Origin: Gammaproteobacteria bacterium Ga0077554 | GTDB taxonomy: Bacteria > Pseudomonadota > Gammaproteobacteria > Ga0077554 > Ga007554 | Direction: 5' to 3' | DNA length: 64,000 nt | Assembly (NCBI GenBank): GCA_001464585.1 | Contig: LNFF01000012.1 | Location: forward strand, 1 to 64,000 | In this document: positions 12,948-47,218 of the stretch, in pieces | How positions within the stretch are numbered: the first letter of the stretch is position 1 | How the letters are laid out: every line of letters begins with the position of its first letter | Position numbers and translations under genes: made by a program | Notes under the pieces: generated by a model | Seen by the model: the letters and a program-made list of their open reading frames with translations, nothing else | The model's database searches: none | Told to the model about the DNA's origin: nothing

Positions 12948-13386
12948 CTACACGCGATTCTGTCGCCGCAGCTTCATGCCGAGCAGACCCAGACCTGCGA
13001 GCATCATCAGGTAGGTCTCGGGTTCGGGCACGGGCGAGAGCAGTAACACGCGGCAGTTGCCTGTCGTGTTGCAACCTGTGGCTGCGATCTGGCCAGAGTT
13101 GTTGATATCTTGAGCGCTGGAGATTGTCCAACCCGACAGCGGATCGATCAGGCTGTTGAGGTTGGTCATGACACCGTCGCTGTAGAGGAAGGCACGGCTG
13201 TTACCGCCGCCGGTGCAGAACCAGCCCACGACTTGGCCGCTGGCGTTGATGCCAGTGGCCTCTCCATTATCGCCGCCCAAAGGTGCCAAGGTCGGTGACA
13301 GAATAGCGCGGCACGGCCTGCGCGGCGCCACTTAACATCCCTGCTACTAACAAGGTGACCACTGCTCGTTTCGATTTCAGTTTCAT
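12948..13386 (-). pseudogene. HAF-repeat PEP-CTERM protein, one frameshift
   Basis: This would be a small secreted surface protein. The ATG at 13386 (GGGAG seven bases upstream) begins a signal peptide, MKLKSKRAVVTLLVAGMLSG, then [12 protein letters not shown] single extra T near 13283 (TTT where TT restores the frame) shifts out of GGDNGEATGINASGQVVGW. The rest reads on to FLYSDGVMTNLNSLIDPLSG and a PEP-CTERM sorting tail, VPEPETYLMMLAGLGLLG plus basic LRRQNRV. Exosortase is expected to recognise that tail. It is a tandem paralogue of the gene at 13465-14597. It could be a pseudogene or a sequencing error. Confidence 0.8.
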
Positions 13387-13464
13387 TGACGTTCTCCCAA
13401 AAAATCAGTTTCAATTGGAAAGGTTTTGATTGAAATTCGCCTGAGATATCTGCCTATACCTCGC

Positions 13465-14597
13465 TTACGACTGTACGCTGTTCCGGCGCCGCAGCTTCAT
13501 ACCGAGTAGACCTATCCCCACGAGCATCATCAGGTAAATCTCGGGTTCAGGCACGGGCGAGAGCAGTAACGCGCGGCAGAGGTTTCTCCCATCACTTATG
13601 CTGCAACTATTAGCAGCGATCTGGCCTGAGTCGTTGATAGCTGCGGCATTGGAGATTGTCCAACCCGACAGCGGGTCGATCAAGCTATTGAGATTGGTCA
13701 TGGTGCCGTCACTGTAGAGAAAGGCATGATGAGCAGCATTGCCAGCGATCTGTGAACTGCCAACGATCTGGCCAAGCTCGTTGATATCAGAAGCGCCGCT
13801 ATTCGTCCCACCCAGGGTGCCAAGATCCATCATACGGCCGTCATGATAAAGGAAGGCATGAAAAGCAGCATCGCCGGCGATCTGTGAACCGCCCACGATC
13901 TGGCCAAGGTCGTTGATATCAGAAGCGCCGCTACTCGTCCCACCCAAGGTGCCAAGGTCGATCATGGTGCCGCCACTGTAGAGAAAGGCATGGGTGTCGG
14001 CATCGCCGAAACTAACTTCGTCGGTGATGTCTGAACTGCCTACGATCTGGCCGCGGTCGTTGATACCACTAGCGCTGGTGCGGGTGCCACCGAAGGAGCC
14101 AAGGTCGGTCAGACTGCCCTCGCTATAGAGGAAAGCGCGGGTCTGGGAAAAGCCCACGACCTGACTGCTCGCGTTGATATCCGTGGCAATGCTAGTGGGG
14201 GGGGCCGCCGGGCAAGGTACCCAGGTTGGTAAAGGTACCGCCGCTGTAAAGAAAGGCCTGTTGATCACCCCTATTAGTAGCTGCACCTACCACTTGACCA
14301 CGGTCGTTGATGCCATAGGCGGAGCTAGATCCACCACCGTCATTAGGTGCCAAGGTCGGTCATAACGCCGCCGCTGTAAAGGAAGGCATGAGGGCGGAAG
14401 GCCCTGCTTTCGCGGAAAACGCCGGATGAACCCACAACCTGGCCGCTGTTATTGATGTCGCTGGCATCGCTACCATAAACGCCACCCAAGGTACCAAGGT
14501 CTGTAACGGAATAGCGTGGCACGGCTTGGGCAGTGCTACCCAACAACATGACAGCCGCTGACAAGGCGACCACTGCTCGTTTAAATTTCAGTTTCAT
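13465..14597 (-). pseudogene. HAF-repeat PEP-CTERM protein, two frameshifts
   Basis: The gene starts at ATG 14597 with AGGAG seven bases upstream and a clear signal peptide ending AQA. It carries about seven HAF-type repeats of the form DLGTLGG...ASDINDLGQIVGSS...HAFLYSGG. The C-terminus is a PEP-CTERM tail (VPEPEIYLMMLVGIGLLG, then KLRRRNS). The frame breaks near 14344 (GGCACCTAATGACGG) and again at a run of eight C on the coding strand (14197-14204), where seven C would restore the frame. With both repaired the protein would be about 375 residues, probably exported and sorted by the exosortase encoded at 37343. The homopolymer raises the possibility of phase variation. Confidence 0.82.
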
Positions 14598-14603
14598 TGA
14601 CAT

Positions 14604-15656
14604 TCTCCTAAGAAATCCTGTTCGTTAGAAAGATATTAATATTCACCTGAGAAATCCGACTATACCACTGTATTTCGAAAAGTGATTTGTAATAATAAAA
14701 TGTTCTCCTCACCAAGCCTTTTATCACCGGAGTGTTACACCCTCATGTCAGGACATGCCTTAAACATAGGCCGTTTGGTTTATGGCGTGCGGGGCACGCC
14801 GAGGGACACGATTTTTTCGAAACTCAGAATTTTAGATATACGACTGTGGCACCCATCTGAGAAGCCACGGCTCTGAGAATATTTTTGCGGAGCCAGTAAT
14901 AGCCATTCTGTATTTTTACAGTCATTTATTACATTGTTTCCTAATTGAGACAATAATTAAAGGTAATGGTATTGTTAATTTAAATTATAACTTCTATAGC
15001 GTTATAAACTGATACGCTTTCAAAATTCATTATCATGTCGAGTCACGACAGAACCCTTTATCGACCAAAGTTAAACTAAGTAATTGTTACTATGATATTT
15101 TATTTTTTTAAAAAATGACTCGCGGAGGATTCATATCAAAAATATCTCACCCCAGCAGAAAGCATGTTTAGCTGGATCTGCACCAAATTAACAATATTTA
15201 AAGCAAAAAATCAATTAAATGTAACTTACATACCGCTTGAAAGTGTCCTCCAATAGAGACACCTCCAAACCCTGCCAAGGGTAATATTAAGAACTCTTCC
15301 CTTTGATTTTATTTGTTTTTTTTATATGGCATGTATTTTGCTTGAGCTAAGTGAAAAGTGCCGGTTGTGTTTTGATCATGTAGGGGCTCATGCAAGCGCA
15401 CAATGCGAGAAGCGGGCGTTACGCATATAAAATATGAAACTCGTTAAAGTCGCAACCAAACATACTGTTGCAGTTAGTTCTTAACCCCGATGTCCTGTAA
15501 TTCATCAAAGATTAAAGGTATTCATTAACCTTACCGATAATACATACACATGTCGAAATGGCGTTATCTATATAAGATTGAAACTCTCTGTATCTACTTT
15601 AGAAATTTTCTTTAAAGGCCAGGATTTGTTATATGGCCATGCCGGAGCAATACCCC
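14604..15656. other. AT-rich 1 kb stretch without a convincing gene
   Basis: I see no credible coding frame. It holds a 7-bp-stem hairpin (GGCGTGC/GCACGCC, 14784-14800), a sigma-54-type promoter at 15327-15341 and long A/T tracts. It separates the minus-strand HAF genes from the plus-strand beta-helix gene and probably serves as the control region of one or both. Confidence 0.6.
15327..15341 (+). promoter_or_regulatory. Sigma-54 (-24/-12) promoter candidate
   Basis: TGGCATGTATTTTGC matches TGGCA-N6-TTGC with exact GG-to-GC spacing. It lies about 330 bases before the beta-helix gene at 15657. Exosortase/PEP-CTERM systems often use RpoN with a PrsR-type activator, which is established for related systems and inferred here. 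No activator gene is in the window. Confidence 0.6.
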
Positions 15657-18600
15657 ATGAAAACACGTTTTTTCCTTTTTTTGTTACTGGTTTTACCAGT
15701 GAAACTTGCCAGCGCGGCCACCTATTATGTGGATGCCAGCCACGGCAACGACCAATGGAGCGGAAGCCAACCCTCTCGTATTGACTCACCCACAACCGAT
15801 GGTCCCTGGCAATCACTTGCCAAAGTTTCTGCAAAATTGTTGATGCCGGGAGATAGCGTACTGCTCAAATGTGGTGGTATCTGGCACGAAACGCTGAGGC
15901 TTCAAAGTTCGGGTACAGCCGCCAGCCCTATAACTATTGGTGCTTATCCGAACGCTTGTGCCAACAAACCAACCATCAATGGTTCAACCCCTATCCCTCC
16001 CCATAACTGGATTCGTGATACTGGCAATATCTATAAGGTATCTACAGCCATTGACTTGATCACATTCGGCGCCTTTGAAAATGGCTTGGGTAACTGGACG
16101 AAATGGTCTCCTGAAAATAACGCCACAATGAGCCTCACCAACGATTGCGCCCAGCCAAATACTACCTGTATGTCATTTAGCGTCGGTTCAATATATGGCA
16201 TTGCCACCAGTAATTATTTCACTATTCAAGGCAAGCAGTCTTACACGGCAACCTTTACCGTGAAGGCGCCACAGGGCGTCCGTGTTGAGGCGATCCTTCG
16301 TCGTGGCGCTTCGCCTTGGGACACGCTCGGTCTTGCCACATTCATAACCGGTACGGGCGCCTGGCAGACTTTCGTCGTGCCCTTCGTTGCAACGACCAGC
16401 CTATCGCATAATGCACGCCTCGACTTTGTAGTTCCTGCTGGCTTTAACATTGGCCTGGACAATGTAAAACTTACCACGGCGCTCACCGATGTGGGTGGCG
16501 TGTTCGACAGCGGCAAAGCCATCAACGTCGCGCACCATCCAAACCGCGGCCATGATCCGCTCCAGCCTCAATCACTTTTCCATTCTATCGCCGAAGACGC
16601 TGATCAAGTGAGTATTCCCGGCAGTACTGGCAGCACCTACCTCACAACGGGCGCCGATCTTTCGGCTTCAGCTCTTACAGCTATCGTACCGGGCACCGGG
16701 ATTCGCATTCGCCCGAACGGATGGACTATAAATGACCGTAAAATCTCTTCTGTTTCGGGTTCACGCCTGTACTTTGACAGCCCCACAGAGTCACTTAAAA
16801 AAGACTGGGGTTATTTTCTCTATGGTCAGCGCTGGATGCTTGATGAACCAGGCGAGTGGCATTTTGACGCCGCAACAAAAACTGTCTCTGTATGGATGGC
16901 AGATAATGCCCATCCCGGCAGTCGTATCTCGGTAGGCCAGTCTTTCTCAGGCATCGAAGCCAGCAACCTGAGCCATATACGTATTGACGGTCTGGCTATT
17001 CGGAATGTGGGCACGGGTGTACATATGCCGCAAGCCACTAACATCGTACTGCGCAATTTGACCATATCCGATACCTTAGGTTTTGGGGTTAGAACCTTGC
17101 TGTCTAAAGACAGTGGCATAGAAAACAGTCAGATTATTCGAACGCTAGGTGATGCTATTTCTGCTTCTCCCATCGGGCTCGATTCAGACCGTTTTCATGC
17201 ATATGACAATCTCATTATAGACAGCAGCATTCAATCCATGAATGGGGTCGTCAGCAGCCTGCCTGTCCCTGCAAGAGTAGCGATAGAAGCAGGAAGAAGC
17301 GCAACTATTCGGGGAAACCGCATTTATGGAACAGCCTATATAGGCATTTTACCCTCTGGCAACAGCCTCATTTCCGACAACCACCTTGAAAATACGTGCC
17401 TGGTCCTGGATGACTGCGCCGCTATCTATACGTGGGGTCAGAACCATAACAGTACCATTGAAAATAACACCATACATCATGTAGTGGGCAACATTTTAGG
17501 AAAAGCGCCCAATCTTGGAAGCCATGGACAGGGTATCTATCTGGACGAGCTTTCCTCAGGAATCACTATCCGAGGCAACACCGTTGTTGACGCAGACAAT
17601 GGCATTCAGCTTCATAACGCCGCAAACAACCGGATCGAAAACAATACGTTGTATGGCAATCGTCGCCATCAAATCTGGTTTCAGGAGGGGAGTAACCGCC
17701 TCAGTACAGACGGGGATATTCACAGTAATCTCGTTCTTGGCAACCGAATGTTTCCAACCTCGACTGCACTTGCAATCCGGCATGAAACCTACCTGCCAAA
17801 AGCCAATACGGATCGCTTTGCCAGTTATGACCGCAATCTCTATTTCACCTTTTTGTGGCCCACCATTTCTTCCGAATCCTGGCCGGGTGGAGCCGCAACT
17901 TACACTTTCCCAAAATGGCAAGCCGCCGTTACTTCTACTAATCTACCGCGCAATTTAGATCCGACATCCCGCGAAGTAAATAGCGCCACTCTGGGGTATG
18001 CCGCATTTCGCACGCTCGGAGGGAATATTGTGCCTTACGGCAACCTGAGCAGGGGCACAGCAGGGTGGGGAGAATGGAATCAGACAGCCCCTTATGGCCA
18101 AATGGTAATGGAACAGTGTACGCCTGCCATTCAATGTTTGCGGTTTACGGCCGGTGCCTCAGAGAGTCTATTGCATACCCATAACTTCTCTGTACAACAA
18201 GATCAGTGGTACAAAATCAGTTTCGACCTTAAAGCCGGCAGCAATGGTCAAACAGTTTACGTCGCACCACGTCGCGGCGGAGGTGGCTCCAATGGCTATG
18301 AGGAACTGATGGGGTCTCCCTGGAAATGGAAGGTGACAGGCACTACAAACCTGCAACGTTACAGCTTCATTTTCAAAGCGTCGAAAACGGTGAATGCATT
18401 TGACCCGGTTACCCTGGATCGTGGTGCCAGAGTCGATTTTCACGGCATATCACCAGGTGAGAATATAAGCGTAGCAAACCTTGAGATCGCTCCTTTAACC
18501 CCTATTGAGGCAACACTGCGCAGCCATATTCTCATCAACCCTACCGGTACTGCATTGCAGCTAAACTGCCCCGATGGAACCAACGCCCTCTTGTGCAGCC

Positions 18601-18797
18601 AATATGTTCGGTTCACCGATAGCCAAAGCATCACTTGGCCTTACGCTGTCCCGCCACATGGATCAGAGATTATTTATTCTCGCGATAGCAGTCTTACGGA
18701 TGGGGATGGAGATGGCATTCCCGACTCTCAGGATACTTGTAAAGGAACACTAGCGGCGCAAGTAGTTAATGCAGCCGGATGTGCTTTAGGGCAGTAA
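15657..18797 (+). CDS. Secreted right-handed parallel beta-helix protein with two CBM-like domains and a calcium-binding tail
   Basis: The 1046-residue exported protein has a signal peptide (MKTRFFLFLLLVLPVKLASA) and then YYVDASHGNDQWSG, a start typical of beta-helix polysaccharide-active proteins. A carbohydrate-binding-like domain lies near residues 140-280 (FENGLGNWTKW...). The beta-helix core follows at about 420-700, with many short N-rich rungs such as GITIRGNTVVDADNGIQLHN. A second CBM-like domain is near 790-940. The tail has a thrombospondin type 3-like calcium loop, DGDGDGIPDSQDTC. The start at 15657 has GGAG nine bases upstream. It could be a lyase or binding protein for the EPS made here; no catalytic residues could be assigned. 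It is the only plus-strand gene of the EPS locus. Confidence 0.85.
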   Translation: MKTRFFLFLLLVLPVKLASAATYYVDASHGNDQWSGSQPSRIDSPTTDGPWQSLAKVSAKLLMPGDSVLLKCGGIWHETLRLQSSGTAASPITIGAYPNACANKPTINGSTPIPPHNWIRDTGNIYKVSTAIDLITFGAFENGLGNWTKWSPENNATMSLTNDCAQPNTTCMSFSVGSIYGIATSNYFTIQGKQSYTATFTVKAPQGVRVEAILRRGASPWDTLGLATFITGTGAWQTFVVPFVATTSLSHNARLDFVVPAGFNIGLDNVKLTTALTDVGGVFDSGKAINVAHHPNRGHDPLQPQSLFHSIAEDADQVSIPGSTGSTYLTTGADLSASALTAIVPGTGIRIRPNGWTINDRKISSVSGSRLYFDSPTESLKKDWGYFLYGQRWMLDEPGEWHFDAATKTVSVWMADNAHPGSRISVGQSFSGIEASNLSHIRIDGLAIRNVGTGVHMPQATNIVLRNLTISDTLGFGVRTLLSKDSGIENSQIIRTLGDAISASPIGLDSDRFHAYDNLIIDSSIQSMNGVVSSLPVPARVAIEAGRSATIRGNRIYGTAYIGILPSGNSLISDNHLENTCLVLDDCAAIYTWGQNHNSTIENNTIHHVVGNILGKAPNLGSHGQGIYLDELSSGITIRGNTVVDADNGIQLHNAANNRIENNTLYGNRRHQIWFQEGSNRLSTDGDIHSNLVLGNRMFPTSTALAIRHETYLPKANTDRFASYDRNLYFTFLWPTISSESWPGGAATYTFPKWQAAVTSTNLPRNLDPTSREVNSATLGYAAFRTLGGNIVPYGNLSRGTAGWGEWNQTAPYGQMVMEQCTPAIQCLRFTAGASESLLHTHNFSVQQDQWYKISFDLKAGSNGQTVYVAPRRGGGGSNGYEELMGSPWKWKVTGTTNLQRYSFIFKASKTVNAFDPVTLDRGARVDFHGISPGENISVANLEIAPLTPIEATLRSHILINPTGTALQLNCPDGTNALLCSQYVRFTDSQSITWPYAVPPHGSEIIYSRDSSLTDGDGDGIPDSQDTCKGTLAAQVVNAAGCALGQ

Positions 18798-24618: not shown

Positions 24619-26595
24619 TTAATCCACTACCTTCATGGCCTCGGCCGGCCGAAGCACCCTACCCTTACCGCGCAACACCGTTAGCAACTCCGGAATCGCG
24701 CTTACTTTTGCTCCATCGATGAGCACTTTTTCCGTATTGTTCACGATAACGGATTTCGTTACTGAAATGCCATTTTCACCGGGCCGTATGATGTAAGGAA
24801 GATCGCAATTCATAAAAAGGTTGCGATCTACGACATTATTTTTTGGGGCACCTGGGTCATCTTCAAGCAACTTTGCCAAGCCGGGATAGCGTGAAGTATA
24901 GAGTGGTGACGAAGCGCCAACCTCTCTCATCTTATTTACGTAGTCTTGATTCGCCTGGGGATCGTGTTTAGCAAGCCCAATGCCTCTAGCGTCAAGATAT
25001 ACTCCGTTACTGCAGTTGGCGAAGATGTTGTCCGATACGGTATTATCCCTGCCACCACCGATAAAAACACCCCGTCCAGCGTTTGCGATCAAATTGCTCC
25101 TCACGATAATTCCACTGGCTTGATCGTCCAGATAAATTGCATGGGCACCGTAATGCAGGCCTGCGGACCCAATGTTACGGATCAGATTTTTCTCGATAAC
25201 CGTGCCGCGCTCTGTCCAGTCGCGACCCGTATAGATCGCTCCAGCGTCATCAGTTTCCTCAACGAAGTTTTCAATAAGATTTCGACGAATCTGGTGATCA
25301 TTGCCGTGAAAAATGATTGCTGAATGCGGCCCCCCTCTCAAGACGGAATCCTCCACGATATTTCCAACGCCCCCTAAGCCTACTGCGGGAGTGTAGGTTT
25401 TTTGCAGGCGGCCTACTTGCGTAATCACGCATTGCCGAACCACCAACAAACCCGGCTGTAATGTTTTCCGGTCACCACCAACCAGGTTTATTCCAGTAGC
25501 ACCGGTATTGTTGATCTCTACACCCTCAATCAATGAATTCACACCAAATACTGAAATTCCATGTGTACCAACATTCCTCACAATGAGATTCCGCAATATC
25601 ACATTGTCAACATTCTCAAGCAAAATCCCCTGGTCGCGAAAGGCCTCAAACCCGAGATCACGTACCTCTACATTTACTCCCCCTTTTAATACTAAACCGT
25701 TTACTACCTGCGACACCTGCACTTCATTAACCTGTATTGGGTTAGGTGGAAGGAAATATACTAGACCAGAACTCTGGTCAATATGCCATTCACCCGGCAC
25801 ATCAATGTCTATCAGGGCATTTTCAAAAAACACCCTGCGATCCGCAGCCACACCAAATGTAGGTTGCGTGCCAGTGAAACTGATTCTTCCTGCAGAATCA
25901 ATCCCCCTGACTGGCAGCTTCTCGTCGGCCCAGTCATGCATGAAATAGCCACCTACCCGCAAATCCTGTTCGCTTTGGTAGATAGCCACATCTCTGCCTT
26001 TGACTTTAAAAACAGCAGCGCCAGCAATTGTTTCAACGCTCCCCGTCCTGGCATAACCGGCATTGGGCCATCGGGCAATTGGCATCCGGGCGCCGCGGTA
26101 AAACAATTCCAGTTCAGGCATATCAGCCCGGCCGAATCTCTTATCGGAAAACTTAGGCACTTCTAAAATTCCAGCCTCCCTGAGACTAGCCACTACCAAG
26201 TTCGGCGGTAGATTTTTTTTCTTCAGAAGTGCCGCTGGAACAGGATTGAAGCGTAAAGGGCGGGCACCCGAGAACAATGTCTGGGTAGCACCTGCCCCCG
26301 CCAGAACAAGTTTGTGGCGGCCACTGCCTGTAACTAGACGGTCTATTGTGAAAGGCGTTACAGGCCGGTAGACACCCGGTTTGAACTTCACCAGCACGTC
26401 ATCGCGTAAATTTCCCAATTCATCATGCAGCGATGGACTATGGAGCCAGGCATCAAGAGCAGCGAAGCGGATACATCCTTCAGAGACCGGAGTCTGATCA
26501 TCGGGTACGACACACGTCGAAATCGTGGCCAGCGAACTTTGTGGATAGGCCAAGAGGCTCGCCATACAAATAAGAAATCGATTGAAAATTTTCAT
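24619..26595 (-). CDS. Secreted right-handed parallel beta-helix protein
   Basis: The 658-residue exported protein has the signal peptide MKIFNRFLICMASLLAYPQS. A domain of about 270 residues with jelly-roll-like strands (SGARPLRFNPVPAALLKKK...) precedes the helix. The beta-helix spans roughly 310-600 with rungs such as VILRNLIVRNVGTHGISVFG and IIVRSNLIANAGRGVFIGGG. The architecture resembles polysaccharide lyase or epimerase-like proteins encoded in many EPS operons, where they may trim or edit the polymer in the periplasm. The start is uncertain, since no strong ribosome-binding site is visible; an upstream in-frame ATG at 26622 would add nine residues before the signal peptide. It shares a fold with the protein at 15657 but lacks its CBM and calcium domains. 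Confidence 0.83.
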   Translation of the reverse strand: MKIFNRFLICMASLLAYPQSSLATISTCVVPDDQTPVSEGCIRFAALDAWLHSPSLHDELGNLRDDVLVKFKPGVYRPVTPFTIDRLVTGSGRHKLVLAGAGATQTLFSGARPLRFNPVPAALLKKKNLPPNLVVASLREAGILEVPKFSDKRFGRADMPELELFYRGARMPIARWPNAGYARTGSVETIAGAAVFKVKGRDVAIYQSEQDLRVGGYFMHDWADEKLPVRGIDSAGRISFTGTQPTFGVAADRRVFFENALIDIDVPGEWHIDQSSGLVYFLPPNPIQVNEVQVSQVVNGLVLKGGVNVEVRDLGFEAFRDQGILLENVDNVILRNLIVRNVGTHGISVFGVNSLIEGVEINNTGATGINLVGGDRKTLQPGLLVVRQCVITQVGRLQKTYTPAVGLGGVGNIVEDSVLRGGPHSAIIFHGNDHQIRRNLIENFVEETDDAGAIYTGRDWTERGTVIEKNLIRNIGSAGLHYGAHAIYLDDQASGIIVRSNLIANAGRGVFIGGGRDNTVSDNIFANCSNGVYLDARGIGLAKHDPQANQDYVNKMREVGASSPLYTSRYPGLAKLLEDDPGAPKNNVVDRNLFMNCDLPYIIRPGENGISVTKSVIVNNTEKVLIDGAKVSAIPELLTVLRGKGRVLRPAEAMKVVD

Positions 26596-33842: not shown

Positions 33843-34204
33843 ACTGGGTGGACGATTGGAGCTACCGCCAGAGGGCGGCACTGTTGCGCTGACTGTGGCT
33901 GTGAGGCCTGTGCCAGTGCGATTGGCAGGGCCAACAGGATGGCAAGCCACATCATAGAGCGAAACCCGATGATGGGCATCACGAACAAGGGAGCGATAAT
34001 CATGAAGCGGAGTCTCACACGGTATGCCTCTAACGGTAAATACCTGGATGAAAGCTGGACTTTGCCTTGTCGAGGGCTAGGTCGCAGGTCGACATCATCT
34101 CGGCGAGCGTTATCGTCCGGGCGTAAACCGAACAACAACATATTTACCCCATCATCTATGTCACGGTGGATGATCTGACCGTTCTGTTCCTGTGTCAATT
34201 TCAT
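33839..34204 (-). CDS. Hypothetical small membrane protein, coupled on both sides
   Basis: The 121-residue protein starts [20 protein letters not shown]; it has a polar N-terminal half and then one or two membrane segments ([15 protein letters not shown] and [15 protein letters not shown]). I recognise no family. It starts at ATG 34204 inside the fcl stop (ATGA) and ends with TGA inside the flippase start (ATGA), so it is a real translated gene and not a shadow frame. The two hydrophobic segments suggest a helper of the flippase or a degraded larger membrane protein. Function unknown. Confidence 0.6.
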
Positions 34205-35175
34205 CGCGTAATGCTTGCCTGGAAATCCTGGTACGCCCGAGCCAAGCCATCGCGCAACGCAGTGTGTGCTTTCCATCCCATTGCATTCAGTCGTCCCACA
34301 TCCATCAGCTTTCTCGGCGTGCCATCCGGTTTGCTGGCATCGAATTCGATGCCCCCCTGAAACCCAACTACGTCTTTCACGGCTTCGGCCAGTTCGCGTA
34401 TGGTGAGATCTTCGCCCACGCCAATGTTCACCAGCGGCGGCAGACCGTCGTTTCGATCCGCAGCAAGCAACGGCTTGAACTGGTCGTCAGGCAAATTCAT
34501 CAGATAAACGCAAGCATCGGCCATGTCTTCGCTATAAAGAAACTCCCGGCGCGGCGTGCCGGTGCCCCACACGGTGACGGTAGAGGCATTATTGACCTTG
34601 GCTTCGTGAAACTTTCGGATGAGGGCAGGGATAACGTGGGAGTTTTCCGGGTGATAGTTGTCGCCGGGGCCATACAGGTTAGTGGGCATAACGGCGAGAT
34701 ATTGGGTACCGTATTGCCGGTTGTAGCTCCAGCATTGTTCAATGCCAGCGATCTTGGCGAGGGCATAAGGCCGGTTGGTCGATTCCAGCACCCCGGTCAG
34801 CAGGTACTCCTCTTTCATCGGCTGCGGAGCCAACTTGGGGTAGATACAGCTGGAGCCCAGGAACATCAGGCGCTTAACATTGTTTTTGTAAGCGGCGTGG
34901 ATGATGTTGGTCTGGATGGCGAGGTTATCACGGATGAATTCGGCGGGATAAGTATTGTTGGCATGAATGCCGCCGACTTTGGCCGCCGCCAGAAACACAT
35001 AATCCGGTTTTTCGGCGGCAAAGAAGGCTTCGACTGCGGCCTGGTTGGTGAGATCGAGTTCAGCGTGGCTGCGTGTGAGAAAATTCTCAAAACCCTTGAC
35101 ACGCAGGTTGCGGATGAGAGCCGAGCCGACGAGACCACGATGTCCAGCGATGTAGATTTTCGCAGTCTTGTCCAT
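34201..35175 (-). CDS. fcl: GDP-L-fucose synthase
   Basis: This short-chain dehydrogenase-type epimerase/reductase converts GDP-4-keto-6-deoxy-mannose to GDP-L-fucose with NADPH. The Rossmann loop [14 protein letters not shown] is at the N-terminus, and the active-site Y-x3-K in YALAKIAGI is near residue 140. [19 protein letters not shown] and [20 protein letters not shown] are family hallmarks. The length of 324 is normal. I chose the ATG at 35175; an ATG at 35190 overlapping the gmd stop would add five residues. It lies directly after gmd, the standard pair. Confidence 0.95.
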
Positions 35176-35182
35176 TGCGCCA

Positions 35183-36268
35183 TTACTCATGGTAGTCGTA
35201 GGCGGCAAAGCCATGCTTGGTGACCAGTTCATCACGCTCGGCACTCTTGAGGTCTTCACGCACCATTTCAGCTACCAGGTCTTCAAAACTGGTTTTCGGT
35301 GTCCAGCCGAGCTTTTCTTTGGCCTTGGTGGGGTCGCCGAGGAGCGTTTCTACTTCAGTAGGGCGGAAATAGCGCGCATCCACCTTGACAATAATTTTGC
35401 CGCTGCGGTCGGCGCCTGTTTCATCAACACCCTTGCCTTGCCAGGTGATCTGCATACCCAGTTCCTTGGCGGCAGCGTTGACGAAATCACGTACGCTGTA
35501 CTGTATGCCGGTAGCAATGACAAAATCTTCCGGCTTGTCCTGTTGGAGCATGAGCCACTGCATTTCAACATAGTCTTTTGCATGCCCCCAATCACGTAGA
35601 GAATCCATGTTGCCGAGGTACAGGCAGTCTTGCAGGCCGAGCTTGATGCGGGCAAGCGCCCGAGTGATCTTGCGGGTGACGAACGTCTCGCCCCTGATGG
35701 GGGATTCGTGATTAAACAGGATGCCGTTACACGCATACAGACCATAGGCCTCGCGATAGTTAACCGTTATCCAGTAGGCATAGAGCTTGGCGACGGCGTA
35801 GGGGCTGCGCGGATAAAATGGTGTGGTTTCCTTCTGCGGGGTTTCTTGTACCAGGCCATAAAGCTCGGAGGTAGATGCCTGATAGAAGCGGGTTTTCTTT
35901 TCCAGCCCAAGGATGCGGATGGCTTCCAGAATACGTAGTGTGCCAATACCATCCGCATTGGCGGTATATTCAGGAGTATCGAAACTGACCGCCACGTGAC
36001 TCATGGCGGCGAGATTGTAGATCTCGTCAGGTTGGACTTTCTGGATAATACGAATAAGATTGGTGGAATCTGTCAGGTCGCCGTAGTGCAGGACAAAGTT
36101 ACGGTGGGAGACATGGGGATCCTGATATAGATGATCAATACGATCCGTGTTGAACAATGAGGCGCGGCGCTTAATGCCGTGAACCTCGTAGCCCTTGCTC
36201 AACAGCAGTTCGGCAAGGTAAGCACCATCTTGTCCAGTGATGCCTGTTATGAGTGCTTTTTTGTTCAT
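35183..36268 (-). CDS. gmd: GDP-mannose 4,6-dehydratase
   Basis: This NADP-dependent dehydratase makes GDP-4-keto-6-deoxy-mannose from GDP-mannose, the first step to GDP-fucose. [20 protein letters not shown] is the cofactor loop. QASTSELYG and Y-x3-K in [10 protein letters not shown] form the catalytic site. [20 protein letters not shown] and [20 protein letters not shown] are family signatures. The length of 361 is normal. It opens the fucose-glycosyltransferase run, after a 355-base gap that holds repeat copy 6. Confidence 0.97.
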
Positions 36269-36623: not shown

Positions 36624-37346
36624 TCAAAGGTCATCAGCTTTAACGCTAACTTTGCTTGGTGAACCAAGGCCTGCAAGGCGAAGCCGCATATCAGGTTGCA
36701 ACTCATTCAACAATGCTTTGGCGAATGAGTCCTGAAGCGCAAAAGCAGCTTGGGTATCTGTGTCAATAGATGAAATACGAAAAAGCAACCCATCGGGTAT
36801 TTCGCCCTTTAGGCCATAACGCATTTCGGCAATTTTTTTGCTTATCCCACCGCCGGTAACGGTTTCATCACCAACCGTTGTCCAGTAAGTCACCGGTTCA
36901 AATCGCTTGTTAGAAAAATTGGTTTCAAGGCGTTGAACGGGAATTGTGCCTTGCGCTGTTACCAGAACACCTTGTCGACTGGATATGACCTGGAAGCCTT
37001 GGGCGGGGTAGCAGACTTCAGGGTAATGCACCTGAACCGCATCTCTTTGGTCGTTACCGTAAGCGATGGAGAGCATGATCCGCTCGCCATTACTATTGAT
37101 GTAAGTGCGCGAAAGCGTTTGCGCATAAATTTTTTTAATGTTCGCTTCCACTTGTGGATTCACCACAACAGAGGCTAAGTTTTTCTCTTCCTTCCATTCA
37201 CCAAATTGTAAAGGAATAGCCGTGCCAAGCTCAAGCGCTGGACGACTCTTTGACAAATGGACGGTAGGTGTCATGACCTTGGTTAGCCCACTAGCCAACA
37301 CCATTAGCGCGCCGAGAATAAGACCAATCATTAACGACTTGGTCAT
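36624..37346 (-). CDS. epsI: Exosortase-associated protein EpsI
   Basis: The 240-residue periplasmic protein has an N-terminal membrane anchor (SLMIGLILGALMVLASGL) and the EpsI block HYPEVCYPAQGFQVISSRQG near residue 107, with a single conserved Cys. EpsI accompanies or is fused to several exosortases and is needed for EPS in methanolan-type systems. It overlaps xrtB by ATGA, and the pair are probably one unit. The C-terminus is a normal length. Its biochemical role is not established in the family. Confidence 0.9.
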   Translation of the reverse strand: MTKSLMIGLILGALMVLASGLTKVMTPTVHLSKSRPALELGTAIPLQFGEWKEEKNLASVVVNPQVEANIKKIYAQTLSRTYINSNGERIMLSIAYGNDQRDAVQVHYPEVCYPAQGFQVISSRQGVLVTAQGTIPVQRLETNFSNKRFEPVTYWTTVGDETVTGGGISKKIAEMRYGLKGEIPDGLLFRISSIDTDTQAAFALQDSFAKALLNELQPDMRLRLAGLGSPSKVSVKADDL

Positions 37347-38248
37347 GACACTTTCCTGGCGGGGGCAGCATGAATGGCTTTCCGTGCTTTTATCGCCAAC
37401 TGTAAGAGGGAATCCACACCTATAATAAGCAGCAATGCACTAACAAATAACACCAAGCCCGCAAATCCATGCAAAAATCCTTGACCCGCCGCATCACCGA
37501 AATGGTAGGTAATCAACGAAAGCACGATGACGCGGACAACGTTTGCGGTAAAAGAGATAGGTACAATCAGGATGGCAAGTGCTACGTTACGAAAAACCGA
37601 GGTGTGCCGAACAACATTGAGGTAAAACAGGCCTAACGCTTCCAAAGTCAATAGCGTTTGCAGACCCGCACAGGCATCAGCCACGAGTAATTGATACTGC
37701 CCAAGCTGCAAAATCACACCCGTGCGGGCAATAGGGTAACCAACCCAGAACAGGATGTGTTCCGTTACATACGATACGGCCATTTTCATTGGCAACGTCA
37801 AGGTGGCCACCAATCCACCTGGCAACGGAATCATGAACAGCATAAAAAACAACGGAAACCATAATACTTTTAAAGCACTGCCGCCCCGCATCAGCAAAAG
37901 CAGGGAAGCAAGCAGTAATATGAAGGAGCCAATCTCGAAAATCAGAATACCCTGCGAGCGCCCAACGATATACAGCAGCAGGGCGCAAATAAAGAGCGGC
38001 CCACCCACCAGTGAAGTGGGTTTTCCCTCACTGGTTTGCAGCATCTGTGGCCATTTCCGATAAATCAACCAGGCAGAAAGCAAAAATATCATGGGACCAT
38101 GTGCCTGCTCTTCAGTGCTCCACAATCCAGTTAAAAGCGCGTAGAAGGTGGGCACATACAACACCAGCAGTCCCAAAATAACAGGCCATGTTTGCTTGAG
38201 GGAAACAGCAGTTAAACGCGGTAGATCTGATGTTATAGTGGCTGACAT
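37343..38248 (-). CDS. xrtB: Exosortase B
   Basis: Exosortases are polytopic cysteine transpeptidase-like proteins that cut PEP-CTERM tails in the inner membrane. The 301-residue protein has about eight membrane helices and the catalytic triad at Cys193 in ADACAGLQTLLTLEALG, Arg239 in FTANVVRVIVL and His260 in QGFLHGFAG. The sequence LGLFYLNVVRHTS and the stand-alone EpsI point to the B type rather than XrtA. It would act on the PEP-CTERM proteins encoded at 44607 and, when in frame, at 12948-14597. It lies upstream of epsI, overlapping by ATGA. Confidence 0.93.
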   Translation of the reverse strand: MSATITSDLPRLTAVSLKQTWPVILGLLVLYVPTFYALLTGLWSTEEQAHGPMIFLLSAWLIYRKWPQMLQTSEGKPTSLVGGPLFICALLLYIVGRSQGILIFEIGSFILLLASLLLLMRGGSALKVLWFPLFFMLFMIPLPGGLVATLTLPMKMAVSYVTEHILFWVGYPIARTGVILQLGQYQLLVADACAGLQTLLTLEALGLFYLNVVRHTSVFRNVALAILIVPISFTANVVRVIVLSLITYHFGDAAGQGFLHGFAGLVLFVSALLLIIGVDSLLQLAIKARKAIHAAPARKVS

Positions 38249-40521: not shown

Positions 40522-41886
40522 TTAAGCTGTGCCTTTTGCCAGCACGCCCAACACGGGTAATCCTAATGCTTCGCTTAAGTCCTGTTCGCTACGCACCCGG
40601 CGATCAAGCAATTCGAGGAGCAAGGCCAGCCCCAAGCTTAGCATTACTCCTAAAAACACGGACAAGGCCATATTGCGCAGCACCTTGGGGCTGGAGGGCT
40701 TCACGGGATCAACAGCGGGGTTCAGCAATACCACATTGGTCTGGTTTATGCGGCTCTGCATGGCAGACTGGTTATAGCGTTCCAAAGCTACATCATAGGC
40801 GCGCTGGGCGCTTTCCACTTCTCGCATGAGCGTGGGAATTTCATCGCGTGATTGCTTGAACTTCATTACCCTGGCTTTTTGCGCTTCCAGCGATGCCTTT
40901 AACGCCGCCTCACGACTCTGTGCCAACCGGGCATTGTTTCTGATACCGCTGGTAACCGAAATCATTTCTTTATCCAACTTCTCGCGCAAGTTCTTCACTT
41001 CTGCTACCGCACGTTGATATTGGGGATGATTAGTACCTAGTTTCTCGGACAAATCCGCCAGCTTGGCCTCTTGGCGTAACAGTTCTGCCTTGAGGCTCTG
41101 GATAAAACCATTCGCTAAAACTTCCGGCAGGGTTTCCATGGATGAGCCTTTGGCAAGCATCTCCTCCATTTGCCGCTGACGACTTTCTGCGTCATACGTT
41201 TGAGCCTGCGCACCTACCATCTGGCTGGTGAGCGCGGCGAAACGCTCTGTTTCCACATCAAGACGCTCGTCGGTTGCGGTGATATTTTTATTCTGTTGAT
41301 ATGCAGACAGCTTACGCTGCGCCTGCTCTACCCGGGCACGCAGATCCGCCTGTTGTTTCTCAAACCATTCAGCACTCTTTCGCGCCGGCTCGACGCTCAA
41401 TTCCAGCGTGGTGTCAATATAAGCTTGCGCAAAAGCGTTAGCCAACGCCGCCGCAAACCGGGGGTCAGCAGCTTCATAGTTGATGGTCATGAGACGGCTC
41501 TCACGCGAGGGCTCAACATTCAGCTTGCTGATTAATGCATCGGCCAACCAGTCCCGGATCGTGCCCTTCCCCTCAGTCGCTTCCAAAAACTGATCCCGCA
41601 CCGCCGGGGAATCCGCCAGCTTGAGATTGTCGATCACCTTAAGGGCTACCTTGCGGCTTCTGAGGATATCCAATTGCGTCGCCATGTAACTGGGGGAAAA
41701 GCTGATCGGCATGGCGCCCGCGTCCACGGCTGGCTCCTTGTAATCAACCACCAGAACCGCACTGGCGGTATATTGTTTGGGCATAAAGTAAGTCACGGCA
41801 GCGGCGGCACCCACTGTCACCAGCAGGGTCAAAAAAATAAGGGGGTACCGGGCCCGCAGAATGTGTAAAAATTGCTGTAAACTCAT
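40522..41886 (-). CDS. epsF: Chain-length determinant protein EpsF (Wzz/GumC type)
   Basis: The 454-residue inner-membrane polysaccharide copolymerase has two membrane helices, at about 16-34 (IFLTLLVTVGAAAAVTYF) and 410-430 (LSVFLGVMLSLGLALLLELL), with a large periplasmic coiled coil between. NTDNVVLLNPAVDP-like sequence (INQTNVVLLNPAVDPVKPSS) before the second helix is the GumC/Wzz hallmark. The C-terminal DRRVRSEQDLSEALGLPVLG probably faces the cytoplasm and contacts EpsG. Confidence 0.93.
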   Translation of the reverse strand: MSLQQFLHILRARYPLIFLTLLVTVGAAAAVTYFMPKQYTASAVLVVDYKEPAVDAGAMPISFSPSYMATQLDILRSRKVALKVIDNLKLADSPAVRDQFLEATEGKGTIRDWLADALISKLNVEPSRESRLMTINYEAADPRFAAALANAFAQAYIDTTLELSVEPARKSAEWFEKQQADLRARVEQAQRKLSAYQQNKNITATDERLDVETERFAALTSQMVGAQAQTYDAESRQRQMEEMLAKGSSMETLPEVLANGFIQSLKAELLRQEAKLADLSEKLGTNHPQYQRAVAEVKNLREKLDKEMISVTSGIRNNARLAQSREAALKASLEAQKARVMKFKQSRDEIPTLMREVESAQRAYDVALERYNQSAMQSRINQTNVVLLNPAVDPVKPSSPKVLRNMALSVFLGVMLSLGLALLLELLDRRVRSEQDLSEALGLPVLGVLAKGTA

Positions 41887-41936
41887 CTTTCAGTGGTGAA
41901 CCCTATTTTGATTGGATCATGTACCTTCATGACCAG

Positions 41937-42731
41937 TTAAAACAAACTTTCCTTGACATACACGACATCATCAGGCAATAGCACCTCCGAGAGGTCAGCC
42001 TTAATTGTGACTACCGCTCCACTTGCATCCTTGCGCTTGATCTGTATCCCGCGCTGAGTGCCGCGCGGAGTCAACCCTCCGCCCATGGAGAGCGCTTGCA
42101 TCACTGTCATATTTCTTTGCAGGCGGTAAGAGCCTGGGCGTTGCGCTTCACCATAGATATAAAACACATCCATACGCGGAATATAAATAATATCTCCGTC
42201 AGCGACCTCCACATTCTGGGTCATGTCGCCTTTCTGCAAAAGCTGGAATAAGTCAATGGGATGTCCCCCTTCTCCCTCATTACCACCTTTCTTGATCACA
42301 ACCGCACTCTCACCCCCTGAAGCATTCACACCGCCAGCCATTGCCAGCAAATCCATTAATCTGTTGCCTCTATCAATGGCATATACACCGGGTTTATTAA
42401 CCTCACCCAGCACCGACACTTGCTGGCTACGGTATTGCTCGACAATTAAACTAACCTGGGGTGACTTTACAAAGCCACCTTGCTGAAGAAGCTCACCTAA
42501 CTTCAATTCGGCTGAGCGTTCTCCCAAACCCGCAATAAATACCTCCCCCACCAAGGGGAAGTTAATGCTCCCCGCTTGACTGATTCGGACCACAGCGCTG
42601 AGATCGGCATGTTCATACACCGTGATACGAACCACATCGCCTGGCCCCAGTACATAATCCTTGGCAAAAACAGATGTTGATAACAAACCGATTATAAAAA
42701 CAAAAAATATAGCGCGGATTCGGCTCAACAT
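41937..42731 (-). CDS. epsE: Polysaccharide export protein EpsE (Wza/GumB type)
   Basis: The 264-residue exported protein starts with a signal peptide (MLSRIRAIFFVFIIGLLSTS). It has the polysaccharide export domain YVLGPGDVVRITVYEHADLS and two SLBB-type domains (SVLGEVNKPGVYAIDRGNR and IYGEAQRPGSYRLQRNMTV). No lipobox Cys is evident, so it is probably a non-lipidated periplasmic/outer-membrane component that forms the export channel with EpsF. It is spaced 50 bases before epsF. Confidence 0.92.
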   Translation of the reverse strand: MLSRIRAIFFVFIIGLLSTSVFAKDYVLGPGDVVRITVYEHADLSAVVRISQAGSINFPLVGEVFIAGLGERSAELKLGELLQQGGFVKSPQVSLIVEQYRSQQVSVLGEVNKPGVYAIDRGNRLMDLLAMAGGVNASGGESAVVIKKGGNEGEGGHPIDLFQLLQKGDMTQNVEVADGDIIYIPRMDVFYIYGEAQRPGSYRLQRNMTVMQALSMGGGLTPRGTQRGIQIKRKDASGAVVTIKADLSEVLLPDDVVYVKESLF

Positions 42732-42884
42732 TAAAAAATATCCCTACGTTGACAAGTCGCTATTGTGACACTCATATGTGAAATATTTATGACTATAGAC
42801 CTTGGAATGGAATTGAGGAAAATCTGCTGTTGTCATTTGACAGGTTGGATCATTTTTACCATGCCGCCAACCTACTACAGGTTG

Positions 42885-44357
42885 CTAATAAGCCCGCTGA
42901 TCCCGAAGTACCACAAAAATAGTCTTGAAAATGATTTTCATATCCAAGGCCATCGACCAATGCCTGAGGTAGTCCAGATCACAATCAATGCGAGCCTGCA
43001 TTTTATCCAGGGTCTCTGTCTCTCCACGCAATCCCCTTACCTGAGCCAAGCCCGTAATACCCGGCCGTACTTTATGGCGCACCATGTATCCTTTAATCAG
43101 TTTGCGGTAAGTTTCATTATGGGCGATGGCGTGCGGGCGAGGGCCAACCACGCTCATACGCCCCTGCAATACATTTATAAACTGCGGCAACTCATCCAAT
43201 GATGTGCGGCGTAAAAACGCACCAAACGGCGTCACCCGGGAATCACATCGCCGGGCCTGACGAACATCATTTCCATCTTCGCAGACTGCCATGGAACGGA
43301 ATTTATACACAATAATTTCCTTGCCATCCAATCCGTAACGGCGTTGTTTGAATAATGCAGGGCCAGGCGAAGTTAATTTTACACCCATGCCAATCAACAG
43401 TAACAGCGGCGCCAAGAATAAAAGAATTATACTGGATAACACTATATCGCTCAATCTTTTAAGCAGATGGTTAACTCCGCAAAAAGGAGTTTCACAAATT
43501 GCGACGACAGGAATGCCATTAACCTCACCCAGTCCAGCCTGGATCAAATCAAACACAAAAATATCAGGCACAAAATAGATGGATGCTGTGGTGTCCTTCA
43601 GGTCATCCAATAATTTAAGAATGCGTTTTTCCGTCATCATGGGAAGCGCAATATAAATCTGATCTATTTTATGGGCCTGTACATAGGCGGGAAGATTTTC
43701 CAGCGATCCAAGCAACATGGCATCAGGAACGTCATCGCCCAAACGTTGCGCGTTTCGGTCATCAAAAAATCCCGCGAACGACAATCCAGGATCAAAGCGT
43801 TTGCCCCGGGTAATTCTATGGGCCAATTTCCTGCCAATGCTACTTGCGCCGACAATCACTGCCCTGTGGATGTTTTTTTCGGAGGCATAGAATCGTCGCA
43901 ATAAAAACCGTGCGGTTAAATGTCCAGTTAAGACCAACAATGGCGCAACCACAAACCACGTCAACAATACACTGCGGGAAAACTCATGGGATGTCTTTGT
44001 AGCATAACCGAAGAATAATAAAATACCTGTCAGCAATGACCAGCAAACCAACAGACGCCCACCTTGGGCACGGAAGCCGCCACTTTTCCAAGCCTGGCAG
44101 AGATCCGCCTCCTTAAACACAACCAGCGAAACCAGAAAAACAATAAAGAGTAAAATCTTATACTCATTGTTGAGAGGCACCTGGTAAATCAGCATTACGA
44201 CAAATAAAGAAAAAACAATAATGACAGGATCCATTATGGATTGCACAAATGCACCGATAGAACCCACACCATGATGCACACGGCGGGCATGCAGCATGGG
44301 ATTTTTTTTACCTTCGGATCCCCAGATTACTTGCTGCGCCTGTTGCGAAAGTGACAC
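42885..44357 (-). CDS. epsB: Undecaprenyl-phosphate sugar phosphotransferase EpsB (WcaJ/PglC type)
   Basis: This membrane enzyme starts EPS synthesis by moving a hexose-1-phosphate to undecaprenyl phosphate. The 490-residue protein has four or five N-terminal membrane helices, a Rossmann-like region with VIVGASSIGRKLAHRI, a re-entrant helix near IVLSSIILLFLAPLLLLIGM, and the C-terminal transferase block FKQRRYGLDGKEIIVYKFRS and RRTSLDELPQFINVLQGRMS with VVGPRPHA. It begins at GTG, with GGAG nine bases upstream. The likely substrate is UDP-glucose from GalU. Confidence 0.93.
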   Translation of the reverse strand: MSLSQQAQQVIWGSEGKKNPMLHARRVHHGVGSIGAFVQSIMDPVIIVFSLFVVMLIYQVPLNNEYKILLFIVFLVSLVVFKEADLCQAWKSGGFRAQGGRLLVCWSLLTGILLFFGYATKTSHEFSRSVLLTWFVVAPLLVLTGHLTARFLLRRFYASEKNIHRAVIVGASSIGRKLAHRITRGKRFDPGLSFAGFFDDRNAQRLGDDVPDAMLLGSLENLPAYVQAHKIDQIYIALPMMTEKRILKLLDDLKDTTASIYFVPDIFVFDLIQAGLGEVNGIPVVAICETPFCGVNHLLKRLSDIVLSSIILLFLAPLLLLIGMGVKLTSPGPALFKQRRYGLDGKEIIVYKFRSMAVCEDGNDVRQARRCDSRVTPFGAFLRRTSLDELPQFINVLQGRMSVVGPRPHAIAHNETYRKLIKGYMVRHKVRPGITGLAQVRGLRGETETLDKMQARIDCDLDYLRHWSMALDMKIIFKTIFVVLRDQRAY

Positions 44358-46417: not shown

Positions 46418-47218
46418 TTAATTTGTTGTATTCGTCCCAAGCTTACTCAATAAAGATTCGATCGCCTGGGCAAACACGGCAGGTGATTGCGCTCCAACAA
46501 TCTGTATGGCATCCACAAGTTTTTTTCCGTCAATGCGCCCCACAAAAAAGGTAGGTGTTCCTTCTATTCCAACACTCTGCCCATAAGTAAAATCACTGGC
46601 AACTTCCTTGGCCTGTTTGGCGTCTTTCAAACAAGTATCGAAAGATACAGGATTAATCTTCAGTGTCTTGGCAAGCTCCTCATACAGGGCTTTACCGAGG
46701 CGTTTCTGGTTTATAAAGAGACTATCGTGCATTTCCCAATAAGCACCCTGCTCGCCCGCGCAATTGGCAGCAATCGACGCACTTATTGCGTTGGGATGAA
46801 ACTCCAAGGGAAAGTCACGGAAAATATATTGCACTTTTCCAGTGTCTATATAGTCTTTCTTCAAAGCAGGTAGAGCTTGCGCATGGAAGCGCCCGCAAAA
46901 AGGGCACTCATAATCGGAAAACTCGACAATCGCTATCTTCGCATTCACATTGCCACGCACCGGATCATCATCAAGCTCAACCTGTGTGACTGGGGGTGGG
47001 GGAGGTGCTCCTTGCGCCCCTTTTTGCAGCGCTGACAAAATTTGTTTGATCGTTCCAACGTCTGCGCTCAAGGCTGTAATCTGACTACTCATTTCTGTGA
47101 GTTTTTTAGAAAGCTCCTGATTATTGTCATTGGCAGCATCCATGGGACGATGCGCGGCGCACGAAGAAAGCACTGTGCATAATAAAAAAATCCGGAACAT
47201 CTGCGTAAAAAAATTCAC
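46418..47218 (-). CDS. DsbA-family thiol-disulfide lipoprotein
   Basis: The 266-residue lipoprotein has a signal peptide ending in the lipobox LSSC (Cys20), then a coiled-coil stretch (residues 34-66) and a Pro-rich linker. The thioredoxin-like domain has the redox motif CPFC at 105-108 and the cis-Pro loop GIEGTPTFFVG. It should catalyse disulfide formation or isomerisation in the periplasm, held to a membrane by lipid. It starts at GTG, with AGGA eight bases upstream. It stands alone between the EPS locus and the CPBP protease; a role in folding secreted EPS proteins is only inferred. Confidence 0.9.
   Translation of the reverse strand: MNFFTQMFRIFLLCTVLSSCAAHRPMDAANDNNQELSKKLTEMSSQITALSADVGTIKQILSALQKGAQGAPPPPPVTQVELDDDPVRGNVNAKIAIVEFSDYECPFCGRFHAQALPALKKDYIDTGKVQYIFRDFPLEFHPNAISASIAANCAGEQGAYWEMHDSLFINQKRLGKALYEELAKTLKINPVSFDTCLKDAKQAKEVASDFTYGQSVGIEGTPTFFVGRIDGKKLVDAIQIVGAQSPAVFAQAIESLLSKLGTNTTN

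Follow-up and report, generated by a model that had tools for sequence, protein, structure and literature searches.

A GH141-like multi-domain protein beside an EPS locus with fucose genes, and its possible action on the polymer of that locus

At one edge of an EPS locus in Gammaproteobacteria bacterium Ga0077554, in the opposite orientation to the EPS genes, lies an ORF for a multi-domain protein (Table 1), which raises the question of whether this protein binds, modifies or cuts the polymer of its own locus. The locus was found in the window, which is the whole stretch of 64,000 nucleotides that was analysed. It comprises genes for a priming transferase, EpsE export, a chain-length protein, exosortase B, an EpsI-like protein, an EpsG-family protein, a flippase-type protein and several glycosyltransferases. 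As gmd and fcl were also identified, the EPS locus with fucose genes proposed in the preliminary description was confirmed, and a carbohydrate-active, matrix-associated protein within it was supported.

Table 1. Features of the window, with the basis of each assignment
Feature	Coordinates	Strand	Basis
GH141-like multi-domain protein, 1046 aa, whole ORF	15657..18797	+	Pfam, alignment of relatives
Signal-peptide-like N-terminus, residues 1-20	15657..15716	+	By eye
N-terminal beta-helix cap, about residues 21-130	15717..16046	+	Resembles lacto-N-biosidase N-terminus and other beta-helix proteins
CBM_4_9 domain 1, residues 134-258	16056..16430	+	Pfam, comparison with L004, structure matches
Insertion domain, about residues 277-417, LDxPGEWxxD motif	16485..16907	+	End resembles GH141_M and part of BT_1002
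Right-handed parallel beta-helix, about residues 430-710	16944..17786	+	Pfam, models, fold comparison
D586 codon, counterpart of BT_1002 D523, putative nucleophile	17412..17414	+	Profile alignment, conservation
D630 codon, counterpart of BT_1002 D564, putative acid/base	17544..17546	+	Profile alignment, conservation
CBM_4_9-like domain 2, residues 790-914	18024..18398	+	Pfam on segment, model
Single TSP_3/OmpA-like calcium loop, residues 1015-1029	18699..18743	+	Weak Pfam, conservation
Second beta-helix protein, 658 aa, GH141-like	24619..26595	-	Profile match, catalytic Asp counterparts kept
fcl, GDP-L-fucose synthase-like	34201..35259	-	496.0 bits, just below cut-off 500
gmd, GDP-mannose 4,6-dehydratase	35183..36268	-	606.1 bits, cut-off 415
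EpsI-like (DUF3485) and exosortase B genes	36624..38248	-	EPS locus
Chain-length (Wzz/GNVR), EpsE export and priming glucose-phosphate transferase genes	40522..44357	-	EPS locus

The ORF spans 15633-18797 (+), with an in-frame ATG at 15633; the second ATG, at 15657, is the start shared with the relatives and was used here. The beta-helix had been correctly recognised earlier, with Beta_helix scoring 67.3 bits, above the Pfam cut-off. For the two carbohydrate-binding domains claimed to surround it, the first was well supported, with CBM_4_9 (PF02018) reaching 40.5 bits for the whole protein (cut-off 25.9) and its best stretch in domain 1, and the second copy alone gave 23.8 bits, just under the same cut-off, when the segment 780-960 was scanned. 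In two relatives, L013 and L014, the best CBM_4_9 stretch is the C-terminal copy, and CBM4, CBM16 and CBM22 structures were matches to the full-length model of the target. CBM 1 can be regarded as a domain inserted between cap and core, because it is lacking in L004, a relative of 33% identity. The tail, initially read as a type 3 repeat tail, was reduced to one conserved loop resembling TSP_3 (thrombospondin type 3 repeat, PF02412) with no repeat array, scoring 14.9-18.4 bits in the target, below the cut-off of 25; the residues of its D-x-D-x-D-G-I-x-D-x-x-D pattern are kept in all six rows of the alignment of relatives (A3). Inspection of L004 (435-3590) by eye showed several repeats of a type-3-like kind, together with an end resembling a dockerin. 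The N-terminal cap, the insertion domain, the catalytic pair and the second beta-helix protein of the locus were additional to what had been described.

Upstream of the target, the stretch 14600-15656 is AT-rich (36.5% GC, compared with 51.9% for the whole window). Promoter and terminator scans around the target gave sites no more frequently than in shuffles, with no clear promoter in 14600-15656. Two HAF-repeat PEP-CTERM genes are located at 12948-14600 (-), and both look frameshifted because, by eye, the signal-peptide-like start is in another frame than the repeat/PEP-CTERM part. A Rcas_1661-like thioredoxin-fold (seleno)lipoprotein, below the curated cut-off, is encoded at 46418-47218 (-).

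To compare the catalytic region with known enzymes, a core profile (residues 277-760, 8 sequences) was run against all PDB sequences. The top match was 5mqp (BT_1002, the founding GH141 enzyme) at E 1.1e-10, in two segments, one covering the insertion domain and the other the catalytic segment, so that the similarity to a characterised GH141 member extends over the catalytic domain. It was followed by 9rx2, named 'Parallel beta-helix repeat protein' (E 3.7e-7), and then by GH110 and AlgE4, both at about 0.003; the alginate epimerase/PL6 matches were weak, at E 0.003 and above. With the full-length profile, the matches were 7v6m, through the cap (4.2e-13), 9rx2 (4.8e-10) and 5mqp (6.1e-7). The insertion domain also seems to be placed as in the GH141 layout, and an arrangement of cap, insert and helix is described for BT_1002 in the available text of PMC10154630.

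In the full-length profile alignment, D523 and D564 of BT_1002 align with D586 and D630 of the target, the numbers D528 and D569 of the 5mqp chain having been converted by one common offset of 5, which was inferred. Both BT_1002 residues are essential for its activity, as stated in the accessible parts of PMC10154630 and PMC12786026. D586 and D630 are invariant in 6/6 rows of A3 and in 8/8 rows of a second alignment (A5), and the target core has 44 acidic positions, of which only 6, these two included, are invariant across the target and paralogue lineages. A distant relative of 23% identity, L006, keeps the D586 counterpart and lacks that of D630. For GH141_M, no Pfam match was found on the target itself; it was weak in 4/6 A3 members (E up to 0.1), and in the relatives and the paralogue where it was listed, it scored 12.8-17.8 bits (the best in L014), all below the Pfam cut-off of 27. 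As it stays below the cut-off, the name GH141-like is used and membership of GH141 is not claimed. Because the target resembles the GH141 family and keeps both cutting residues, it most likely cuts its own polymer. Of the earlier choice between binder, lyase and epimerase, the carbohydrate-active character was retained; judged on the profile matches, the evidence points to a GH141-like glycoside hydrolase rather than any of the three. We consider it probable, with moderate confidence, that the protein is secreted and cleaves the fucose-containing EPS of its own locus.

The link to fucose was examined in 8 of the 10 genomes with a relative, leaving out G038 and G110, which had shorter or more distant matches and which both hold gmd according to the class-wide search. 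In these eight carriers, gmd was above the cut-off in seven. It was on the same contig as the gene, within 3-17 kb, in five (G000, G006, G144, G146 and G147), on a different contig in G145 and G089, and missing above the cut-off from G148, the genome of L014. The fcl query also gave matches in 7/8 carriers, always adjoining gmd, with an identity of 75-100% in six and 39% in G089. Specificity of the target for a fucose polymer is therefore plausible. However, gmd was above the cut-off in 168/369 genomes of the class and EPS loci often carry it, therefore this linkage is confounded and should be taken as support and not as proof.

A credible, if unlikely, alternative is that the target is a GH141-like hydrolase of its own polymer that cuts at a rhamnose-, galactose- or xylose-type linkage, the fucose link being incidental. 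GH141 is multifunctional in the accessible portions of PMC10154630 and PMC12786026, a xylanase also being placed within the family in the former, and the sugar genes nearest the target gene vary among the relatives. In the five relatives with long flanks (L010-L014), the copies lie among glycosyltransferase, flippase-type or sugar-nucleotide genes: gmd and fcl in the fetched flanks of L012, rmlAB and UDP-glucose dehydrogenase beside L010, galE beside L011, L013 and L014, and wecB beside L013 and L014. The presence of both gmd and fcl in seven of the eight carriers, on the same contig in five, argues for the fucose-directed hydrolase over this possibility.

The second beta-helix protein of the locus shares 22-25% identity with the target (25% over 386 columns) and carries the catalytic counterparts D450 and D490; no CBM is listed for it by Pfam. 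As a separate protein, it was found in G000 and G006 only, among 14 genomes searched, and the Beta_helix matches of the target's own genome are confined to these two ORFs, both within the EPS locus. This paralogue bears on the improbable reading that the target is a non-catalytic matrix protein, one whose beta-helix and pair of CBMs would attach to the polymer so as to cross-link it or anchor it to the cell, and whose aspartates are structural or bind calcium. Such a role would suit the two CBM-like domains and the calcium loop, the adhesin PfbA has the same beta-helix fold as the core model (Z 25.2), and L006 is without one of the aspartates. However, the exact GH141 catalytic pair is invariant in all eight rows and is kept in a distant paralogue in which Pfam lists no CBM, which speaks against this reading.

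Structure models were also compared with known folds. The full-length model had a mean pLDDT of 54.5, and alginate epimerases, tailspikes, NosD and lyases were tied at Z 23-26 in its fold comparison, with 5mqp absent among the best 50 fold matches listed. In the core model (pLDDT 67.8), the helix was confident and the insert was of moderate confidence. This model did match 5mqp (VIA Z 24.4, rmsd 3.1, 248 aligned), yet epimerases, NosD and tailspikes stood at Z 24-26 and lyases were likewise tied. In Foldseek, four 5mqp chains were at ranks 5-8 (E 2.0e-6 to 2.7e-6), with a capsule lyase ranked ahead of them. Since the 5mqp score ties with those of epimerases, tailspikes and lyases, fold alone decides nothing.

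It is quite improbable that the target is a polysaccharide lyase or C5-epimerase (AlgE, AlgG, PL6 or RbmB-like) that targets uronic acids in the polymer. The highest VIA scores of the core model were those of AlgE6 (Z 26.3) and AlgE4 (Z 26.2), and the biofilm-polymer lyase RbmB (9ozl) matched the full-length model at Z 24.8. However, many beta-helix families score equally high, and the sequence profile favours BT_1002 over AlgE4 by seven orders of magnitude. In addition, the scanned genes of the window showed no uronic acid pathway, although UDP-glucose dehydrogenase is found near the L010 copy.

Three other identities were tried and set aside. For a phage tailspike, there was a single PHROG match (E 9.4e-6) with no stretch passing alone, which was taken as a shared fold. 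For the copper protein NosD, the Pfam NosD model was above its cut-off, but NCBIfam NosD gave 23.2 against 300. For a lacto-N-biosidase, NCBIfam LnbX gave 35.7 against 2500, through the cap only. The LnbX-kind lacto-N-biosidases (6kqs, 5gqc and 7v6i), which we take to be GH136, share the sequence of the cap with the target, but this match covers residues 22-124 only and stops before the catalytic helix. Their fold also matches the core model (Z 24.1), tied with other families.

The target family is rare and patchy. A full-length copy at 85% identity is present in another genus, and at least five further full-length relatives of 37-69% identity were found in named genomes of Thiobacillus (2), Hydrogenophilales (1) and Nitrosospira (2), the cultivable Nitrosospira sp. 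Nsp14 having one at 37%. This number, from genome_contigs (one genome per species, 84,980 species), is a lower bound because two short peptide patterns were used for the scan. Matches at E 1e-10 were obtained in 5/144 relative genomes and at E 1e-20 in 5/369 genomes of the class, the own genome being included in both, and the core profile matched the own genome only among phylum genomes (1/398). The Thiobacillus, Hydrogenophilales and Nitrosospira carriers are lithotrophs.

The gene for fucose isomerase, fucI, was found in 0/8 carriers, with a positive E. coli control. As the carriers make GDP-fucose but are without the usual fucose-eating route, feeding is disfavoured and processing of their own polymer is favoured. 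A nutrient-scavenging enzyme for foreign fucans is accordingly very improbable, given also the location of the target gene in EPS biosynthesis loci and the lithotrophic carriers, even though degradation is the role given to the fucose-active GH141 enzymes characterised in the available text of PMC10154630 and PMC12786026.

For the GH141-like hydrolase, the proposed working is as follows. The protein would be exported by Sec, and the two CBM_4_9-like domains could hold the polymer, while the groove of the beta-helix would present D586 as the nucleophile and D630 as the acid/base. These residues would break a glycosidic bond by hydrolysis, presumably in an endo mode, the likeliest site being an alpha-L-fucosyl residue. 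The calcium loop may stabilise or localise the C-terminus. The protein could be used for trimming or release of the polymer, or for remodelling or dispersal of the biofilm, and probably not for feeding.

Among the closest known systems is the Bacteroides thetaiotaomicron alpha-L-fucosidase BT_1002, whose layout of an N-terminal helix part, an inserted beta-sandwich and a main beta-helix the target appears to share, with the catalytic Asp pairs aligned. The target differs in having an extra inserted CBM_4_9, a second CBM-like domain and the calcium loop. BT_1002 attacks plant pectin, as far as PMC10154630 is accessible, whereas the target is in an EPS biosynthesis locus. The Wf141 endo-fucanases of Wenyingzhuangia fucanilytica can be likened to the target by description, not by sequence, as the available part of PMC12786026 gives them a GH141 fold, the Asp pair and a fucose polymer as substrate; unlike the target, they come from a marine bacterium, in which their genes are part of a cluster for fucoidan degradation. 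For the proposed role, a likeness exists with RbmB of Vibrio cholerae, a matrix-degrading enzyme that acts on the exopolysaccharide made by the same organism, cutting it and disrupting the biofilm, according to the accessible text of PMC11637428. However, RbmB is a lyase acting on VPS and was absent from the sequence matches of the target profiles.

Hydrolases are frequent in EPS clusters, as reported in the available portion of PMC9075953. Our literature search, with most subscription literature lying outside it, gave no example of a GH141 enzyme encoded among EPS biosynthesis genes, and the further mentions of GH141 in the texts available to it concern CAZyme counts or degradation. A tenable, still tentative, idea is that in lithotrophic Betaproteobacteria a distinct GH141-like branch moved from degradation into EPS biosynthesis loci. 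Having acquired an inserted CBM, it would serve there as a hydrolase dedicated to the fucose-containing polymer that the producer itself makes, and in this strain, as in one relative, two such enzymes of different architecture would act on the same polymer.

The length and release of a polymer and the dispersal of the biofilm can be controlled by hydrolases encoded in EPS loci. Such enzymes are also specific tools for polymers without a known cutting enzyme. Characterised GH141 members are few, and the reported context of the fucose-active ones, in the literature that was accessible, is degradation. If true, a branch acting on its own polymer would widen the role of GH141 and provide an enzyme for bacterial EPS that contains fucose.
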